Origin: Desulfamplus magnetovallimortis
GTDB taxonomy: Bacteria > Desulfobacterota > Desulfobacteria > Desulfobacterales > Desulfobacteraceae
Direction: 5' to 3'
DNA: 64,000 nt
Assembly (NCBI RefSeq): GCF_900170035.1
Contig: NZ_LT828541.1
Location: 212,172 to 276,171, forward strand
In this document: positions 4,157 through 63,709 of the stretch, piece by piece
How positions within the stretch are numbered: position 1 is the stretch's first letter
Layout of the letters: the number at the start of each line of letters is the position of its first letter
Program-made: the position numbers and the translations under genes
Notes under the pieces: generated by a model
Seen by the model: only the letters and a program-made list of their open reading frames with translations
Database searches by the model: none
Told to the model about the DNA's origin: nothing

Positions 4157-5749
4157 ATGTCGGAAGGACTACTGCAACTCATTGCCAAAGGTGAAGGCAT
4201 TGAACTTGAGTTCAAAACCTGCCGAAATAAGCTCAATCGTGATGTTTATGAAACGGTTTGTGCTTTTCTTAACCGCCATGGCGGCACCCTGTTTCTGGGA
4301 ATTAATGACAATGGTGATATTCAAGGCATTGAACCCCAGGCACTTGCACAAATCCGCAAAGACTTTGCTACATCCATAAACAATCCCCAAAAACTATCAC
4401 CGCCAACATATCTTTCAATCAATGAGGAAGAGATAGAGGGCAAAAGGCTTCTAAGGATTTATGTCCCGGAAAGCTCACAGGTGCATCGCTGCAACGGCCG
4501 AATATATGATCGCAATGAGGATGGTGATCTTGATATTACCGATCAAACAGTTCAGGTGGCATGGCTTTACCAGCGTAAACAGGCAACATACAGTGAAAAC
4601 AGGGTATATCCCTGGATAGAGATAGATGAGCTTAGAAAAGATCTGATGGAAGATTGTCGAAAATACCTGCGTATTAACGACCCCAATCATCCCTGGGGAA
4701 AAATGGATGATATGCAGATGCTCAAAAGTGCCCAGCTATATCAAAAAGATCCCGTAACCGGCAATTATGGCGTGACCCTGGCAGGTGTAATGCTTTTTGG
4801 CTCAGATCACAATATTCTACAGATCTGCCCGGCACATCGAACCGATCTTATTCTGCGTAAAGTAAATGTAGATCGTTATGATGACCGTGACCTTGTACGC
4901 ACCAATCTGATTGAAAGTTATGACAGAATTCTATCTTTTATAAAAAAACACCTTGCAGATCCCTTTTACCTTGAAGGGATAGAAAGACGGAGTTTAAGGG
5001 ATATTATTTTTCGTGAAGTTGCCTCAAACATGCTCATTCATCGTGAATATGCAAGCGGTGCCACATCCCGTATCATTATAGAGTATGGGCGAGTGGTGAC
5101 AGACAACCCCAGCCGCCCCAACGGTTTTGGCCTTCTAAACCCTGAAACATCTACTCCTTTTCAGAAAAATCCTGTTTTAAGTGCTTTCTTTCGTGTCATA
5201 GACCGTGCTGATGAGCTTGGTTCAGGTATGCGTAAGATGATGCGTTACTGCAAAAAATATGGCGGTGCCGATCCCCAGCTTATCGAAGGTGATAACTTCC
5301 GCATGATTATCCATGTACCGGAGTTTGGTGGAAACCCTGCTAAAAAAGCCACGATTGTTCATATGGATGATAATGGGGTAAAGGTTAGCCAACAAAGTGG
5401 GATGCATGATGGGGTGCATGATGGGGTGCATGATGGGGTGCATGATGGGGTGCATGATGGGGTGCATGATGGGGTGCATGATGGGGTGCATGATGGGGTG
5501 CATGATGGGGTGCATGAGCATAGTTTAACAGAAACCATGAAAACAATAATTAAACACTTAGAAACCCCCCTATCAACACCACAACTGTTGAACCTACTGG
5601 GATATCCACGAAGAACAAGAAATTATGAATCATCTATAAAATTTTTGTTAAATAAAAGCTTAATTGAAATGACTATTCCCGATAAACCCCGAAGTAAAAA
5701 TCAAAAATACCGCCTCACCGAAAAAGGCAGACAAACCATAGAGGAATGA
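4157..5749 (+). CDS. AlbA_2 (Schlafen-type) DNA-binding / RecG-like ATPase-fold regulator with (HDGV)9 linker
   Basis: The 530 residues fall into an AlbA_2 putative DNA-binding domain (about 10-125; FLNRHGGTLFLGINDNG), a RecG-like C-terminal ATP-binding region (about 270-380; REVASNMLIHREY, DELGSGMRKM), a linker of nine HDGV repeats (417-452), and a C-terminal winged-helix-like segment (about 455-530). Such proteins are usually annotated as putative transcriptional regulators or ATP-binding proteins. The start has a good SD (AAGGAG). The stop codon lies inside a family D repeat that begins at 5743, so the extreme C-terminus is contributed by the repeat. The cellular role is unknown. Confidence 0.8.
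   Translation: MSEGLLQLIAKGEGIELEFKTCRNKLNRDVYETVCAFLNRHGGTLFLGINDNGDIQGIEPQALAQIRKDFATSINNPQKLSPPTYLSINEEEIEGKRLLRIYVPESSQVHRCNGRIYDRNEDGDLDITDQTVQVAWLYQRKQATYSENRVYPWIEIDELRKDLMEDCRKYLRINDPNHPWGKMDDMQMLKSAQLYQKDPVTGNYGVTLAGVMLFGSDHNILQICPAHRTDLILRKVNVDRYDDRDLVRTNLIESYDRILSFIKKHLADPFYLEGIERRSLRDIIFREVASNMLIHREYASGATSRIIIEYGRVVTDNPSRPNGFGLLNPETSTPFQKNPVLSAFFRVIDRADELGSGMRKMMRYCKKYGGADPQLIEGDNFRMIIHVPEFGGNPAKKATIVHMDDNGVKVSQQSGMHDGVHDGVHDGVHDGVHDGVHDGVHDGVHDGVHDGVHEHSLTETMKTIIKHLETPLSTPQLLNLLGYPRRTRNYESSIKFLLNKSLIEMTIPDKPRSKNQKYRLTEKGRQTIEE
5405..5512 (+). repeat. in-frame 12-bp minisatellite, nine perfect copies
   Basis: The unit CATGATGGGGTG is repeated nine times without a mismatch and encodes HDGV. 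Because 12 is a multiple of 3, copy-number change would keep the downstream winged helix in frame and only alter linker length. Confidence 0.95.
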
Positions 5750-5842
5750 GTACGAAATAACTTTACCATTCTGATTTAAACTAAGCGGGCGAGACGCCAG
5801 CGTTCCCAGAAATGAATGGGCACGTTATTTAAAACCCATTCC
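5743..5842. repeat. family D palindromic element overlapping a stop codon
   Basis: It starts GGAATGAGTACGAAATAAC and ends with GTTATTTAAAACCCATTCC, forming imperfect inverted ends. The TGA of the upstream gene (5747-5749) is inside the left end. Relatives lie at 12227, 33002, 40057, 40226 and 59777. Confidence 0.6.
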
Positions 5843-25030: not shown

Positions 25031-25066
25031 TTTATGACACCATCAACAAAGGAGAAGAGAGTCAAT

Positions 25067-27484
25067 ATGAAAACTAATGCACGTGCAGTTGTAATTGGTG
25101 GCGGTGCAATCGGTGTAAGCATTGCATATCACCTTGCAAAATATGGATGGAAAGATGTTGTACTTGTGGAAAAACATGAGCTGACATCAGGTTCTACATG
25201 GATGGCAGCAGGTAATGTCTCCTTTTTCCATTCCAGCTACTACGGCACCCAGGTAAACATGAAAAGTATCGAGATTTTCAAAAATCTTGAGAAGGAAACT
25301 GGACAGTCAACGGGCTGGCACACTACAGGTTCAATCAGAACAGCGGACAACAAAGACAGAATGGATGAACTTGGATACTTCTACTCCATGAGCAAGTGCC
25401 TTGGCCTTGATGTTGACTGGGTTGATACTGCAAAAATGAAAGAGCTTCACCCCCTGATGAATACAGAAGGACTTCTTGGTGGACTCTACTGGCCTGATGA
25501 TGGAGACGTTGACCCCAACAGCATGACCCAGGCCATGGCAGCAGGTGCAAGAAAATATGGAGCAGAACTTAATCTTCATACACTTGTAACAGCCATTGAG
25601 CAGAAACCCAATGGTGAATGGCTTGTAAAAACTGACAAGGGCGATATAACATGCGAAAATGTTATCAATGCCGCAGGACTCTGGGCACCTGAAGTTGCAA
25701 GGATGGTCGGTCTTGAAATTCCATCCATTGCCATTGCACATACACACATTCTCTATGAAAAGATCAATGCTGTTGAGGAAAGGGATGTAATGCTTCCGCT
25801 TGTCCGTGACCCTGACCGCTCCATCTACCTGCGTCAGGAGATGGACAGCCTGATCCTTGGAATGTACGAAAAATATGGTCAACAGTGGAAAGCAACTGGA
25901 GTTCCATGGGATTATGCCCAGACAGAGCTGAATGCCGACATTGACAATATTGCAGAAAACATTGAACATGGTATCCACCGTTTTCCGGTTCTTGGTGATA
26001 CCGGCTTCAAACATGTGACAGCAGGCCCCATAACATATACTCCCAATGGAGATCCCCTTGTAGGTCCTGCATATCCTCTTAAAAACTTCTACCATGCCTG
26101 CGGCTACAGCTTTGGTATAACCCAGGCAGGCGGAATTGGTCACCATCTTGCAGGATGGATAATGAACGGCGAACCAGAGATTGATCTGTGGAACATGGAC
26201 AGCCGCCGTTATGGTTCCTATGCCAACTGGGCATACAACCGCGAAAAAATCGCTGACACATATCCAAGACTTTACAGCATAATCTATCCAAATGAGTGGA
26301 GAGATGCTGCAAGACCAAACAAGACAAGCCCAATCTATGAATACCAGAAACAGGCAGGTGGGGCATTTGCAGACTATTATGGATGGGAGTGCCCTAACTA
26401 TTTTGCAGATAACGAAGAAGATACCAAAGAGAAACCAAGCTGGCGTCGCAACAACTCTTTTAAGTATGTTGATGCAGAGTGCAAGCATGTAATGAACAAT
26501 GTAGGGCTTCTTGATCTTACCCGTTTTGTAAAAACACGCATAAGCGGCCCGGGAGCAAGGGCATGGCTTGACAAAATGACCTGTCAGAAGCTTCCTGCAA
26601 AGGATGGAGGACTTGCACTATCTCCGATGCTTGACAATGATGGAAAGTTCAAAACAGACATGACAGTTTCACGCACCAGTGAAAATGACTATTTCTGTGT
26701 CACAGCAAGTGTTGGAAAACGTCATGACCAGCACTGGATGATCCAGAACCTGCCATCTGATGGCTCTGTTATAATGGAAGATCTCACCTACAAAATGGGC
26801 TGTCTTGTCATTGCAGGCCCAAAAAGCCGCGACCTTCTGGCAAAGGCATCCCATGGTGATGTATCCAACGAAGGGTTCAAGTTCAGCACAACAAAAGAGC
26901 TATATGTTGGGCGTGTAAAATGCCGTGTAAACCGCATGAACTATGTGGGTGAGCTTGGATTTGAAATCTTCCATCCAATTGATCAACAGATTCCACTTTT
27001 CAACCACCTTATGGAAATTGGAAAAGAGTTTGATCTCAAGATGTTCGGCATGCATGCAATGGAGTCAATGCGTATAGAAAAGGGATATCTTGCATGGAAA
27101 TGCGAAATGAACAGACACCACACTCCGCTTGAAACAAATGTGGCGTGGACTGTAAAGATGGACAAAGATTTCATTGGCAAGGAAGCTCTTCAAAAACAGA
27201 AAGAAGAAGGCATCAAACAGAAACTTGCCTGCATGGTTGTGGAAGTCAAGGATTCAGACCCCTATGGATACAACGGAATATACAAGGGTGATGAAAGGGT
27301 TGGTATTACATCTGCCGGAGCCTATGGCCACAGGGTTGACAAAAGTATTGCCCTTGGTTATGTCTCACCTGAGCTTGCTGTTCCCGGAACAAAGCTTGAA
27401 GTGGAGATCCTTGGAAAAAAACGTCCGGCAGAGGTTGTTGCCATGCCGCTTTATGATCCGAAAAATGAGAAAACAAAAGCATAA
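25067..27484 (+). CDS. dimethylglycine/sarcosine dehydrogenase-like FAD + GcvT protein
   Basis: The 805-residue protein has an N-terminal DAO-type FAD domain (AVVIGGGAIGVSIAYHLAK) and a C-terminal GcvT/folate domain (about 430-800; GPKSRDLLAKAS, MESMRIEKGYLAWKCEMNR). This is the layout of dimethylglycine and sarcosine dehydrogenases, which pass electrons to ETF and the methyl carbon to tetrahydrofolate. In animal enzymes a histidine in the STWHAAG motif holds FAD covalently. Here the motif reads STWMAAG (Met46), so FAD should be non-covalent. ATG 25067 is preferred; an ATG at 25034 would add 11 residues. It lies upstream of EtfBA pair 2, its likely electron acceptor. Confidence 0.87.
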   Translation: MKTNARAVVIGGGAIGVSIAYHLAKYGWKDVVLVEKHELTSGSTWMAAGNVSFFHSSYYGTQVNMKSIEIFKNLEKETGQSTGWHTTGSIRTADNKDRMDELGYFYSMSKCLGLDVDWVDTAKMKELHPLMNTEGLLGGLYWPDDGDVDPNSMTQAMAAGARKYGAELNLHTLVTAIEQKPNGEWLVKTDKGDITCENVINAAGLWAPEVARMVGLEIPSIAIAHTHILYEKINAVEERDVMLPLVRDPDRSIYLRQEMDSLILGMYEKYGQQWKATGVPWDYAQTELNADIDNIAENIEHGIHRFPVLGDTGFKHVTAGPITYTPNGDPLVGPAYPLKNFYHACGYSFGITQAGGIGHHLAGWIMNGEPEIDLWNMDSRRYGSYANWAYNREKIADTYPRLYSIIYPNEWRDAARPNKTSPIYEYQKQAGGAFADYYGWECPNYFADNEEDTKEKPSWRRNNSFKYVDAECKHVMNNVGLLDLTRFVKTRISGPGARAWLDKMTCQKLPAKDGGLALSPMLDNDGKFKTDMTVSRTSENDYFCVTASVGKRHDQHWMIQNLPSDGSVIMEDLTYKMGCLVIAGPKSRDLLAKASHGDVSNEGFKFSTTKELYVGRVKCRVNRMNYVGELGFEIFHPIDQQIPLFNHLMEIGKEFDLKMFGMHAMESMRIEKGYLAWKCEMNRHHTPLETNVAWTVKMDKDFIGKEALQKQKEEGIKQKLACMVVEVKDSDPYGYNGIYKGDERVGITSAGAYGHRVDKSIALGYVSPELAVPGTKLEVEILGKKRPAEVVAMPLYDPKNEKTKA

Positions 27485-34902: not shown

Positions 34903-35147
34903 CCTTATGAACCTTGTTAATAATCTCTGAATCAGAGATATCCAGGATTAACAGGATAAAGCAAGATTATTTATCGTGAGCATCCTGTAAATCTTGGTTA
35001 TCTTTTATATGAAAGTCTCTGTAACAGCCTGTTTTAAAAACGACTTTCACTCCTTAGATTGTGGCAGGTATCCGCCATGTACGTTATTCAAACAAATGCA
35101 ATAATGCAATAAATGCCAAAAAGCCATAAAGATTTCGATTTTGAGTA
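34881..35147. mobile_element. family C MITE-like element with a nested family A2 repeat
   Basis: The left end TACTCAAAAACGACACC and right end TTTCGATTTTGAGTA are near-perfect inverted repeats. The inner CAGGATTAACAGGATAAAG and GAGCATCCTGTAAATC arms form a large palindrome. A family A2 unit (about 35008-35088) interrupts the right arm. The element separates azlC from azlD. Other copies: 48516, 60864, 63531. Confidence 0.7.
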
Positions 35148-43380: not shown

Positions 43381-44356
43381 ATGAAAAGAATTAGTTTGTC
43401 CATTTGTGTTATCTTTGTATTGGGACTTCTCTTTTCCGCAAACTCATTTGCAGCAGACAGAATATTTTTTGGAATTGCAACAGGAGGCACAGGGGGTACC
43501 TATTATCCACTTGGAGGGATGCTGGCACAGATGATCTCCAACAATGTTGATATTAACGGCAAAAAAACTCTCTGCCACAGCAGAAACCGGAAATGCATCA
43601 GTTGCCAACGCAACTCTTCTTGGCCGTAATGGAATTGAATCTGCTTTTGTTGCAGCAGATATACTGGATGCAGCATACAAGGGAACCAAGCAGTTTGAGG
43701 GAAAAGAGATCAAAAACCTCAGAGCGCTTGGAGCACTCTATCCTGAAACAGTACAGCTTGTTGTACGCGCAAATGCAGGTGTAAAAACATTTATGGATCT
43801 TAAGGGCAAATCCATCTCCTCAGGCTCTCCAGGTTCAGGTCAGTGGCAGCTTCTTGGTGATCTTTTGGAAGCACACGGTATGGACAGAACAACCGATATT
43901 TCTGAAGACTACTCCTCATTTTCCCAGTCAGTTGAAAAAATTAAAGACGGTAACCTTGATGCATCCCTGATTACAGCAGGCACACCAACAGCATCAGTTC
44001 TTGAGCTTGCAAACTACCATGATATAATAATTCTTCCACTGACAGGCCCTGCCATCAAGGAGCTTCAGAAAGTTCAGCCTTACTATGCCAACGCAACCCT
44101 TCCTGCCAACACATATAAAGGCCAGACTGAAGATGTTGAAACAATTGCCGTAAGAGCCATCTGGGCAACCCATGATCAGCTTGACGAAGAGACTGCCTAC
44201 AATGTTGTAAAGGCTCTTTATGAAAATACAGAAACCCTTGCAAAGGTACATGTCAAAGGGAAAGAGATATCCCTTGAAAAGGCCCTTGAATCAGTATCCA
44301 TTCCACTCCATCCAGGAGCTGAAAAATACTATCGTGAAAAGGGTATGATAAAATAG
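43381..44356 (+). pseudogene. TAXI-family TRAP transporter solute-binding protein, frameshifted at an A7 tract
   Basis: The signal peptide (KRISLSICVIFVLGLLFSAN) and FFGIATGGTGGTYYPLGGML are in one frame. The rest (TAETGNASVANATLLGRNGI, SISSGSPGSGQWQLLGDLLE, down to GAEKYYREKGMIK) is in the +1 frame. The switch occurs at AAAAAAA, 43561-43567; six A's would restore the expected protein. Everything else looks intact, so this may be a recent mutation, a sequencing error or polymerase slippage at the run. TAXI proteins deliver solutes to TRAP permeases, here the fused one downstream. The TAG stop abuts the next start. Confidence 0.8.
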
Positions 44357-44357
44357 T

Positions 44358-45047
44358 ATGAAAGGATTTATTGCAGGGATTCTTGGAATTTTCATATTCA
44401 CCTGCATTTCCACCGGAGAGGAGATCAGGGTAAAATGCCCTGGAACCTCCGCTCCGGGTATAAGTTCACCCTCCCCTGCCCTCTTATCACCTCCAAAGGA
44501 GACAGAAACCAAGGAAGACCGGAATAGCGTCACCTCCCCGATATCAGGTAAAACAAAAAACGTAAGTTCTCAATTAGTCAGGGTAAACGCCCTGATATCT
44601 GACAAAACAAATAACTCCCTGATATCCGCCAGAACAAAAAATTGTACAACATGCGGCCACCTTGTCATAACTGAGTTTCCAGTCAAAAAGGTGCTGGGAC
44701 GCTATCCTCTGGACAAAGATCAAACATTTGCCCTCACCTTCATCCATTCTGTTTCCAAAACCAGAGTAAAGGATATCTTTGAGATCCGATCGGGTCAAAT
44801 CATACAGACAAAGGAGTTTTTCCAAACCCACGGCGCTGGCCTGCCATCCGCACCAGATGAACCAGGAGGAACTTCATGGGAAAAAACCAGCGAAGGTTTT
44901 ATCCTGAACATGGAAAGACCAATCATAAAACTTGTGGTTAGAACAGATAGCCTGTACGAAAACCGTCTTGTTCTGCCTTCCGGTACTCTCAATCTTAATC
45001 AATGGGGTGATCAGGCTATTTTAATTTTCTTTGAAAAATCCATATAA
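44358..45047 (+). CDS. DUF1850 protein of a TAXI-TRAP operon
   Basis: The 229-residue protein begins with a hydrophobic signal-like segment and ends in a DUF1850 domain (about 100-229; FALTFIHSVSKTRVKDIFEI, THGAGLPSAPDE). DUF1850 genes commonly lie between TAXI binding-protein and permease genes; their role is unknown. Between signal and domain there are about 70 Ser/Thr/Lys-rich residues with three related motifs (PISGKTKN, LISDKTNN, LISARTKN). The start lies one base after the binding-protein stop. Confidence 0.78.
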   Translation: MKGFIAGILGIFIFTCISTGEEIRVKCPGTSAPGISSPSPALLSPPKETETKEDRNSVTSPISGKTKNVSSQLVRVNALISDKTNNSLISARTKNCTTCGHLVITEFPVKKVLGRYPLDKDQTFALTFIHSVSKTRVKDIFEIRSGQIIQTKEFFQTHGAGLPSAPDEPGGTSWEKTSEGFILNMERPIIKLVVRTDSLYENRLVLPSGTLNLNQWGDQAILIFFEKSI

Positions 45048-45314: not shown

Positions 45315-47582
45315 ATGAGTCTTGCTGAAACAACTCAGGAGAAGAGCCCTGATATCAAAATTTCCAACCAAGATGCGGATGATTTCATTGATGATTCCCA
45401 GATTGATACCATTATAAAAAAATTTGATGCAGAATCCAACTTCAGAAACCTTGGTGGAATCACTGCAAAGATAACAGGATTCCTCTGTATTGTATTAAGC
45501 CTTTTCCACGTTTATACAGCAGGTTTCGGACTTTTGAACGAGGTGACCCACAGGACAGTTCACCTCACACTTGTACTTGGACTTGTTTTTCTGGTTTTTC
45601 CCAGGCAAAAACCCAAAAAAATGTTGACTGACTGGGGATTCGGCATCTTTTTTGCCATATTTTATATTTTCCTCACCTGGCAGCTTACAAACCGCCTTGC
45701 TGACCAGTTCTCCCCATGGGGACAAACTGCACTGATAGGCATGAGCATTTTCATAGCAATTACAGCACTGCCCATTCGTCAGCTTGGAGGAGAAGGAGAC
45801 AAGCTCTCATTTGCAGACTGGCCACTTGCCATTGCTGCCGGAGGATTTTCTCTATACCTTATCGTCTTTTTCAAAGAGATTTTCATCATCAACATAGGCT
45901 TTCCCCAGCTTGCCGATTACATCATGGGACTGATTGCTGTCATGATGGTAACAGAGGCGTGCCGCCGAGTTATGGGAAACACGTTGCCTGTTATTGGAGC
46001 AGGAGCCCTTTTATACGGCCTTATGGGGCCATTTCTCCCCGGAGTTCTTGCACACAGAGGTTATGACATAGTAAGAATTGTTGAGCATCTATACCTTGGA
46101 ACTGAAGGTATATACGGCGTTGCTGTGGGTGTTGTTGCAACATATGTATTCCACTTTGTTCTCTTTGGTGTAATGGCACAGGCATCAGGGCTTGGACAGC
46201 TTTTTATTGACCTTGCCATGATTCTTGCCGGAAAATATTCAGGTGGTCCTGCCAAGGTATCAGTCCTCTCTTCTGCCTTCTTCGGCATGATATCTGGCTC
46301 TCCAATTGCTAACACTGCAACAACAGGCTCTTTTACCATTCCCATGATGAAGAAAAACGGTTTTTCACCAAGCTTTGCATCTGCTGTTGAGGCATCTGCA
46401 TCCTGTGGTGGACAGGTAACACCGCCAATAATGGGGGCATCTGCCTTTGTAATGACGGAAATGTTGGGAGTGCCCTATAATGAAATCATTCTGATTGCCA
46501 TTATACCGGCTCTTTTTCACTACCTTGCCATTTTCAGCATGGTTCACCTTGAAGCAAGGCGTCTTGGTCTTAAAGGCATGGCACAGGAGCAGATCCCCCA
46601 GTTAATGTATGTTCTTAAACGTTCTTGGCATCTGATGATTCCGCTTACCACCATGGTAACCCTTCTTCTGATGCAGTTCACACCATATCTTGCAGCTTTC
46701 TGGGGAATAATTCTTACCATTATCTGCTCCTATATCCCACCGATTATGCACAAACTGGGCATAGGAGACCTTGACGACTCAAAAACACTTACCCCCAAAA
46801 GAATTGCCGAAGGGCTTGATGAAGGTGCAAGATATGCCCTGGCCATTGGTGCAGCATGTGCATGTGTCGGTTTTATTCTTGGAATGCTCACCCTTACCGG
46901 AATGGGATTCAAGTTCTCAGGTGCGGTTCTGGAACTTTCATCCACTGCCGGAACCTTTCTTTCAGGTATTATACCTTTTGGTCTTCTTTCAGCAAATGGA
47001 TGCACGCTTTTCTTTGGTCTTATCATGGTGGCTGTGGCCTGTATAATCATGGGAGCCGGTATTCCCACAACTCCATGCTATATTATCCTTGCTTCCATTG
47101 CAGGCCCTGCCTTAAGTGATCTTGGAGTGCCCCTTATTGCCACACACTTTTTTGTATTCTATTACGGCGTTCTTGCTGACGTCACTCCTCCTGTTGCACT
47201 GGCAGCATATGCAGGTGCAGGCATAGGAGGTGCCGACCCCATGGAAACAGGAATGACTGCATTCAGACTTTCAATGGGCAAGGCTCTTGTTCCCTTTATG
47301 TTCGTATATGCTCCAAGCATGCTTCTTATCGATTTCAACTGGCCTGAGTTTTCAATAGCCATAATAAGCGGCATCCTGGGTGTAATTGCCTTATCTGTTG
47401 CCTATATCGGATATTTCAAAACAGAAGTTTCCCTGTGGGGTAAAACTCTTCTTACTGTGGGTGGTCTTCTGATGGTTTCAAGCAACATCGCCATCATTCT
47501 TACCGGAACCGCCCTTGTACTCTCTGTGTTGCTTCCAAGACTTTTAGGAATTGGAACACATAAAACTGCAACAAACTGGTAA
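45315..47582 (+). CDS. TRAP transporter fused permease (4TM/12TM, TAXI type)
   Basis: The 755-residue protein fuses the small (DctQ-like) and large (DctM-like) TRAP permease domains, as usual for TAXI systems, with about 16-18 hydrophobic helices. Typical segments are IDLAMILAGKYSGGPAKVSV, SGSPIANTATTGSFTIPMMK, VEASASCGGQVTPPIMGASA and the C-terminal YYGVLADVTPPVALAAYAGA. TRAP systems import organic acids, amino acids or similar solutes by ion symport. A good SD (AAGGAG) precedes the ATG. pylS follows after 20 bp and is probably cotranscribed. Confidence 0.92.
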   Translation: MSLAETTQEKSPDIKISNQDADDFIDDSQIDTIIKKFDAESNFRNLGGITAKITGFLCIVLSLFHVYTAGFGLLNEVTHRTVHLTLVLGLVFLVFPRQKPKKMLTDWGFGIFFAIFYIFLTWQLTNRLADQFSPWGQTALIGMSIFIAITALPIRQLGGEGDKLSFADWPLAIAAGGFSLYLIVFFKEIFIINIGFPQLADYIMGLIAVMMVTEACRRVMGNTLPVIGAGALLYGLMGPFLPGVLAHRGYDIVRIVEHLYLGTEGIYGVAVGVVATYVFHFVLFGVMAQASGLGQLFIDLAMILAGKYSGGPAKVSVLSSAFFGMISGSPIANTATTGSFTIPMMKKNGFSPSFASAVEASASCGGQVTPPIMGASAFVMTEMLGVPYNEIILIAIIPALFHYLAIFSMVHLEARRLGLKGMAQEQIPQLMYVLKRSWHLMIPLTTMVTLLLMQFTPYLAAFWGIILTIICSYIPPIMHKLGIGDLDDSKTLTPKRIAEGLDEGARYALAIGAACACVGFILGMLTLTGMGFKFSGAVLELSSTAGTFLSGIIPFGLLSANGCTLFFGLIMVAVACIIMGAGIPTTPCYIILASIAGPALSDLGVPLIATHFFVFYYGVLADVTPPVALAAYAGAGIGGADPMETGMTAFRLSMGKALVPFMFVYAPSMLLIDFNWPEFSIAIISGILGVIALSVAYIGYFKTEVSLWGKTLLTVGGLLMVSSNIAIILTGTALVLSVLLPRLLGIGTHKTATNW

Positions 47583-47602
47583 TCAAAAAAAGGAGTATTT
47601 TA

Positions 47603-48457
47603 TTGAATAATCCAGACTCCTTCAACTGGACAGATACCCAGCAGAGGCGCCTGAAGGAGCTTGGGGCAGAAGAGAGTGTTTTTTCAGAAAAGCTCTCTTC
47701 TGCTTCTGAAAAAAACAGGCGATTTCAGGAAATTGAAAAAAGACTTGTAAAGCAGCAGCAGAAAAAACTTAATGATTTTATTGCAAATGCATCAACACCA
47801 CGTCTTCACCAGCTTGAGCGAAAACTTGCTGCTATTCTAAAGCAAAACGGTTTTGCCCGGGTTTCAACCCCTCTCATTATATCAAGAGCAGCACTTGCAA
47901 AAATGTCCATAGACAATGACCATCAGCTTTTCAGGCAGATTTACTGGCTCAATGAGAGGCAATGCCTCCGTCCAATGCTTGCCCCAGGTCTTTACAGCCT
48001 TATGATTGATTTTCAAAGGCTAAAACATCGACCTGTCCGTTTCTTTGAAATTGGCTCATGCTTTCGCAGGGAAACAGACGGTGCAAAACACAACAGCGAA
48101 TTTACAATGCTCAACCTTGTGGAGATGGGACTTCCTGAAAATGAACGTCTGGAACGCCTTCAAGCCCTGGGCAGACTCATTGCCGACACAGCGGGCATTG
48201 ATGATTATCGCTTTGAGACGGAAGATTCTGTGGTATATGGAGATACTCTGGATATTGTTGCCGGCAAAGAAGGAATAGAGATTGCTTCAGGAGCAATTGG
48301 CCCACACCCCCTTGACACTGCCTGGAAAATCACAGAGACCTGGGTAGGGCTTGGATTTGGACTTGAACGTTTAGTGATGATATCAGAAAAAGAGACATCA
48401 ATCGGCAAGTGGTGTAAAAGCACAGCGTATCTTGATGGAATTCGTCTTAACATATGA
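47603..48457 (+). CDS. pylS: pyrrolysyl-tRNA synthetase catalytic protein (bacterial PylSc type)
   Basis: The 284-residue protein matches bacterial PylSc in length and motifs: ALAKMSIDNDHQLF, CLRPMLAPGLYSL (motif 2 region), FFEIGSCFRRETDG, EFTMLNLVEMG, VVYGDTLDI and GLGFGLERLVMI. Asn171, Tyr212 and Trp247 correspond to pyrrolysine-pocket residues Asn346, Tyr384 and Trp417 of the Methanosarcina mazei enzyme. The N-terminal tRNA-binding domain is absent, as expected where pylSn is a separate gene. The start is TTG at 47603 with AGGAG 7 bp upstream. The enzyme charges tRNA-Pyl that reads UAG. No pylT, pylSn or pylBCD is visible in the window. Confidence 0.93.
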   Translation: MNNPDSFNWTDTQQRRLKELGAEESVFSEKLSSASEKNRRFQEIEKRLVKQQQKKLNDFIANASTPRLHQLERKLAAILKQNGFARVSTPLIISRAALAKMSIDNDHQLFRQIYWLNERQCLRPMLAPGLYSLMIDFQRLKHRPVRFFEIGSCFRRETDGAKHNSEFTMLNLVEMGLPENERLERLQALGRLIADTAGIDDYRFETEDSVVYGDTLDIVAGKEGIEIASGAIGPHPLDTAWKITETWVGLGFGLERLVMISEKETSIGKWCKSTAYLDGIRLNI

Positions 48458-48515: not shown

Positions 48516-48694
48516 TACTCAAAAACGACACCTATGACCTCATGAGCCTTGTTAATACTGTCTGAATCAGGATGCCCAGGATAACCAGGATTTACAGGAT
48601 AAAAATCTTGAGCATCCTGTAAATCCTGGTTATCCTGATTCAGACAAATGGAATAAATGACAAAAAAGCCAACAACCTGTCGATGTTGATTGCA
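48516..48694. mobile_element. family C MITE-like element between pylS and the Uma2 gene
   Basis: It starts TACTCAAAAACGACACC and contains the large palindrome CTGAATCAGGATGCCCAGG ... ATCCTGATTCAGAC. The right end (TGTCGATGTTGAT) is degraded. Confidence 0.65.
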
Positions 48695-60863: not shown

Positions 60864-61040
60864 CCTCAAAGTCCACACCTATGATCTTGTAAGCCTTGTA
60901 AACACTGTCTGAATCAGGATTCCCAAGATTAACAAGATAAGGCAGGATTATCTATCCTGAGCATCCTATCCATCCTGGTTATCCTGGTTCAGACAACTGC
61001 AATAACTTCTGAAAAAGCAATAAGATGTCGATTTTGAGTT
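60864..61040. mobile_element. family C MITE-like element upstream of the nucleotidase gene
   Basis: Left end CCTCAAAGTCCACACC, right end TGTCGATTTTGAGTTAA, inner palindrome CTGAATCAGGATTCCCAAG ... ATCCTGGTTCAGAC. A family B half unit follows (GACATCCTTCATATCATCCC, TTTTACACTTTTT; 61057-61095) and ends close to the kinase stop. Confidence 0.65.
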
Positions 61041-63530: not shown

Positions 63531-63709
63531 TTATTCAAAATCGACATCTTATTATTTTTTTGTAGTTGCTGAATTTGTCTGAATCAGGATAATCAGGATA
63601 AAAAGGATGTTCAGTATAGATAATCCTGCCTTATCCTGTTAATCTTGGGCATCCTGATCCAGACAATATTGACAATGGTCAAGAGATTATAGGTTTCAAA
63701 TTTGAGTAT
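63531..63709. mobile_element. family C MITE-like element (inverted copy)
   Basis: Starts TTATTCAAAATCGACATC and ends TTCAAATTTGAGTATT. Inside are TGTCTGAATCAGGATAATC and GGCATCCTGATCCAGACAAT. A degraded family A unit (TGGCAGACACATCTGCCA) follows at about 63848-63865. I see no gene in the last 300 bp. Confidence 0.65.

Follow-up and report, generated by a model that had tools for sequence, protein, structure and literature searches.

The pyl genes are generally clustered, an arrangement that is usual but not required. In the split form of pyrrolysyl-tRNA synthetase (PylRS), tRNA-Pyl is bound by PylSn and aminoacylated by PylSc, and the D. hafniense enzyme (PDB 3dsq, 2zni), which belongs to the 'sN' class made up of PylSn and PylSc, is the described system closest to the one considered here. 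A complete pyl set in which one member is distant has been described in 'Ca. M. alvus', where pylB lies ~0.7 Mb from a pylTSCD cluster (PMC3941956), and Deltaproteobacteria whose code is expanded with both pyrrolysine and selenocysteine have been reported in a survey that includes a genome from a Californian brackish spring (PMC8318568). Here we describe a pylSc gene of Desulfamplus magnetovallimortis that lies within a 64,000-nucleotide stretch of contig NZ_LT828541.1 (hereafter, the window). Its product has in common with the D. hafniense enzyme its length, the class II core, motif 2 and the pocket residues, and, as is the case for bacterial split enzymes of the 'sN' class, a separate PylSn is encoded in the same genome. 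Unlike its counterpart in D. hafniense-type systems, however, the gene is located behind a TRAP transporter operon and not within a pyl cluster. The genome resembles that of 'Ca. M. alvus' in having a complete pyl set with a gene far off, except that pylB stands apart there and pylSc and pylBCD stand apart here (PMC3941956). It also resembles the surveyed Deltaproteobacteria in combining Pyl genes with TMA and DMA methyltransferases that contain in-frame TAG codons; we found no statement on the placement of pylSc in that survey (PMC8318568).

The gene (47603..48457, plus strand) begins with a TTG start codon and encodes a protein of 284 amino acids, the catalytic subunit of PylRS. When compared to the NCBIfam profile TIGR02367 (PylS_Cterm), for which the curated cut-off is 178.15 bits, the product scores 309.6 bits, and the closest solved structure is that of D. 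hafniense PylSc (3dsq; E 1.1e-85, residues 4-284). In an alignment of 34 PylSc sequences, residues N171, Y212, W247, A127, L130, Y131, R155 and R256 never vary, and the arginines of motif 2 and motif 3 are likewise invariant. (Note that N171, Y212 and W247, which are residues of the pyrrolysine pocket, correspond to N346, Y384 and W417 in M. mazei numbering.) A previous sequence-only reading of the window had identified the protein as PylSc, and these results, which include the presence of every pocket residue that it named, bear out that identification. The window gene encodes the single PylSc of the 6.68-Mb genome; a profile search of the genome revealed no second copy, the remaining matches being far under the cut-off.

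The other components of the pyrrolysine system are encoded elsewhere in the genome. The pylSn gene (C2:553613-553879; 120 bits against a cut-off of 51) is located ~294 kb from pylSc on the same contig, and is followed by a gene for tRNA-Pyl (L014:10477-10549) that carries CTA, corresponding to the anticodon CUA. This tRNA folds into a cloverleaf whose anticodon stem has 6 bp and in which a single nucleotide separates the acceptor stem from the D stem, both of which are described features of tRNA-Pyl (PMC8318568); an Rfam search of the pylT region gave no match above the gathering score. The pylB, pylC and pylD genes are consecutive on another contig (C15), and their products score 459, 390 and 224 bits, respectively, all over the corresponding cut-offs. 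(Note that PylB, encoded at L013:9169-10557 on the minus strand, contains a tandem-like insert, HLHENTYK..., that separates the two segments matching the PylB profile, and that PylC and PylD are longer than usual.) Approximately 6 kb from pylBCD are the dimethylamine and trimethylamine methyltransferase genes mtbB and mttB, each of which is full-length when read through an in-frame TAG (TIGR02368, 515.8 bits, and TIGR02369, 734 bits, respectively). The TAG of mttB is codon 328, which agrees with the reported Pyl position in MttB, 327 of 485 (PMC8318568). A copy of MttB with TAA (L016) was set aside as a non-Pyl paralogue, and its sequence aligns across the Pyl site without a stop. Of the three methyltransferase genes in which the sequence-only reading had envisaged an in-frame TAG, mttB and mtbB were therefore found, and the monomethylamine methyltransferase gene mtmB is absent from the genome. 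Because pylSc, pylSn, tRNA-Pyl(CUA), pylBCD and two TAG-bearing methyltransferase genes are all present, the earlier prediction that UAG is decoded as pyrrolysine in this organism is well supported by gene content; both pylT and pylBCD, whose absence had been named as evidence against that prediction, were found by the genome-wide search. We entertained the idea that the window gene encodes a PylS-like enzyme that has diverged, or that it is a remnant which has fallen out of pyrrolysine use, as its distance from the remaining pyl genes and the insertions in PylB, PylC and PylD could suggest. The full-length open reading frame, the conservation of all pocket and motif residues, the single copy, the presence of all partner genes and the intact state of the two TAG-containing target genes make this very unlikely.

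The pyl genes of this genome are thus found at three loci (pylSn-pylT, pylBCD and a lone pylSc) and not in one cluster. Among the 86 family genomes searched, 28 contain pylSc. The sequence preceding the gene can be read in 24 of these, and in 20 of the 24 the gene immediately before it is pylD, which usually belongs to a series that also includes pylT, pylSn, pylB and pylC. The family-standard cluster, pylT-pylSn-(other genes)-pylB-pylC-pylD-pylSc, comprises the same genes as are present in the window genome, with pylSc normally last; compared with this cluster, the window genome is split into its three loci, and pylT follows pylSn instead of preceding it, a second sign of rearrangement. The four exceptions among the 24 are the window gene, which has a TRAP permease gene upstream, and the pylSc genes of G030, G037 and G060. 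Other genes precede pylSc in G030 and G037, with pylC downstream in G037, and in G060 a lone pylSc is separated by ~13 kb from pylSn and pylB, and pylD is found on a different contig. G060 therefore represents a second, differently broken pyl cluster, in which the lone pylSc lies downstream of genes that, judged by sequence, specify a sensor and an ABC transporter of the glycine-betaine type (L102, L072). A separate peculiarity was seen in G081, where one pyl cluster (L070) contains two tRNA-Pyl genes, at 2870-2942 and 5696-5768, within 3 kb. No TRAP gene is directly upstream of any of five further pylSc genes from elsewhere in the phylum, and beyond the window no TRAP-pylSc linkage was found in the 86 family genomes or in the five other phylum members with a match. 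(A scan of contigs for close relatives returned two, both cut at contig edges.)

In the window, the genes are ordered, 5' to 3', as follows: a TAXI substrate-binding protein gene (43381..44356, plus strand; PF16868), a gene for the DUF1850 protein of the TRAP operon (44358..45047, plus strand; PF08905, 62 bits), a gene for a fused TAXI-TRAP membrane permease of 755 amino acids (45315..47582, plus strand; TIGR02123, 667 bits), and pylSc. As a correction to the first reading, we note that an A7 run at 43561-43567 frameshifts the TAXI binding-protein gene in the assembly, giving the open reading frame pieces 43381-43629 and 43544-44356; the orthologues in L096, L098, L099 and L101 are intact, and the frameshift may be a sequencing error, a true pseudogene or a site of slippage. 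The gap between the permease gene and pylSc (47583..47602, plus strand) is 20 bp long and contains a good Shine-Dalgarno sequence, AAAGGAG, and a scan of it found no terminator-like site between the permease stop codon and the TTG start. The junction is thus just as had been described from the sequence, and the shortness of the gap, the presence of this Shine-Dalgarno sequence and the absence of a terminator make it likely that pylSc and the permease gene are co-transcribed.

Six family genomes in which the flanks can be read encode permease orthologues of 81-83% identity, and in none of these six orthologous TRAP operons does pylSc follow the permease gene. The gene in this position encodes an IclR regulator in G058 and G059, is glutamate formimidoyltransferase-like, as judged by sequence, in G016, and is unrelated or convergent in G019, G056 and G060. 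Within the flanks that were fetched, no match to Pyl or methyltransferase genes was found near any of the six operons, and four of the six genomes (G016, G019, G056 and G060) carry pylSc elsewhere. Since the TRAP-pylSc junction is absent both from the TRAP operons and from the pylSc loci of relatives, it is peculiar to the window genome among those available.

These comparisons bear on the suggestion, made in the sequence-only reading, of a regulatory or substrate link between the transporter and pyrrolysine. According to this idea, placement of pylSc in the TRAP operon would cause the capacity to decode UAG to rise with the substrate of the transporter, a methylated amine or betaine. The 20-bp gap, the shared strand and the absence of a terminator would be in keeping with such coupling, as would the occurrence of sarcosine-oxidase-like genes elsewhere in the window and that of the ABC transporter genes upstream of the lone pylSc of G060. 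We nevertheless consider it improbable, because the junction occurs in only one of the genomes examined, the six orthologous operons lack methylamine, methyltransferase or Pyl genes in the flanks that were fetched, pylSn, pylT and pylBCD lie outside the TRAP operon, and the TAXI binding-protein gene is frameshifted in the window assembly. Moreover, the TAXI-TRAPs that have been characterised have glutamate or alpha-ketoglutarate as their substrate (PMC11574862), and import of methylamine or betaine by this transporter, as had been proposed, therefore gains no support. The N-methyl oxidation locus noted in the earlier reading does exist, in the form of sarcosine-oxidase-like genes at 9.2-27.5 kb of the window, but these are 20-38 kb away from the pylSc operon and are not part of it. 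In several relatives, a gene for an 821-amino-acid FAD/aminomethyltransferase protein (dimethylglycine or sarcosine dehydrogenase-like) is found beside pyl genes, often together with mttB (L061, L073, L074, L075, L076, L079 and L080), and is ~34% identical to the window gene at 25034-27484. The theme of sarcosine and dimethylglycine oxidation thus fits with pyrrolysine use, but not by way of the TAXI-TRAP transporter. With the sole pylSc under the control of an uptake operon, decoding of UAG as pyrrolysine might even be confined to times when the TRAP operon is expressed, and given that about one-tenth of sampled genes end in TAG (a rough count, from a sample of overlapping stretches), the cell could benefit from such conditional decoding. 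If true, control of decoding by operon placement would provide code expansion with a natural switch; the evidence is not in its favour, and we hold it to be improbable.

How pylSc came to lie behind the TRAP operon is suggested by its phylogeny. In a maximum-likelihood tree, the window PylSc falls inside the main pylSc clade of the family (support 99/98), and relocation of a family gene therefore explains the arrangement better than does import from outside. Horizontal acquisition, whereby the pylSc now in the TRAP operon came from a donor outside the family, would be consistent with the patchy occurrence of the gene in the genus, where it was found in one of nine other members (G003, at a contig edge; the same-genus genomes are incomplete), but is highly improbable in light of the position of the gene within the main clade and of its G+C content (44%), which resembles that of the permease gene (45%). 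We think it very probable, from the sequence comparisons, that an ancestral cluster, pylT-pylSn-pylB-pylC-pylD-pylSc, was broken into three places, that pylSc, encoding a working PylSc, moved behind an unrelated, conserved TAXI-TRAP operon, and that there is no dedicated link between transporter and pyrrolysine. (Note that the direction of change, cluster first and then split, is inferred from the majority arrangement and not from a dated tree.)

Just after pylSc is a palindromic dispersed repeat of 116 bp (48545..48660, no strand assigned), which has ~40 near-full copies in the genome and may act as a hairpin terminator. Its 16-mer core has 554 matches with at most one mismatch on both strands of the 6.7 Mb (~1 per 12 kb; control, 0), and further copies are present in the window at 34912-35002, 60892-61005 and 63573-63675. 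This palindromic repeat family, with several hundred copies in the genome, yields spurious 'QDxQDxQD' open reading frames. Copies are found downstream of pylSc, in the interval that separates pylSn from pylT and in the contig stretch with pylBCD, and recombination between them was considered as a cause of the break-up; as core matches occur at ~1 per 12 kb in this genome, the placement of the repeat beside the pyl pieces is not telling and provides no evidence for a mechanism.

Under the rearrangement reading, the family pyl cluster would have split into three loci with pylSc ending up as the last gene behind the TAXI-TRAP operon, with which it would then probably be transcribed. PylBCD would make pyrrolysine, PylSc together with the tRNA-binding PylSn would charge tRNA-Pyl(CUA) with it, and the in-frame UAG codons of MtbB and MttB would be read as pyrrolysine by the charged tRNA. 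The neighbourhood of pylSc and the transporter would be an accident of rearrangement, and a shared transcript with the transporter could still matter to the cell. Dispersed pyl genes were already known, and the present case is one of unusual gene order and not of a new mechanism. It adds a genome in which a complete pyrrolysine cassette is scattered over three loci; pylSc therefore need not co-locate with pylT, pylSn and pylBCD. For annotation of the genome of this organism, UAG is to be treated as a possible sense codon.
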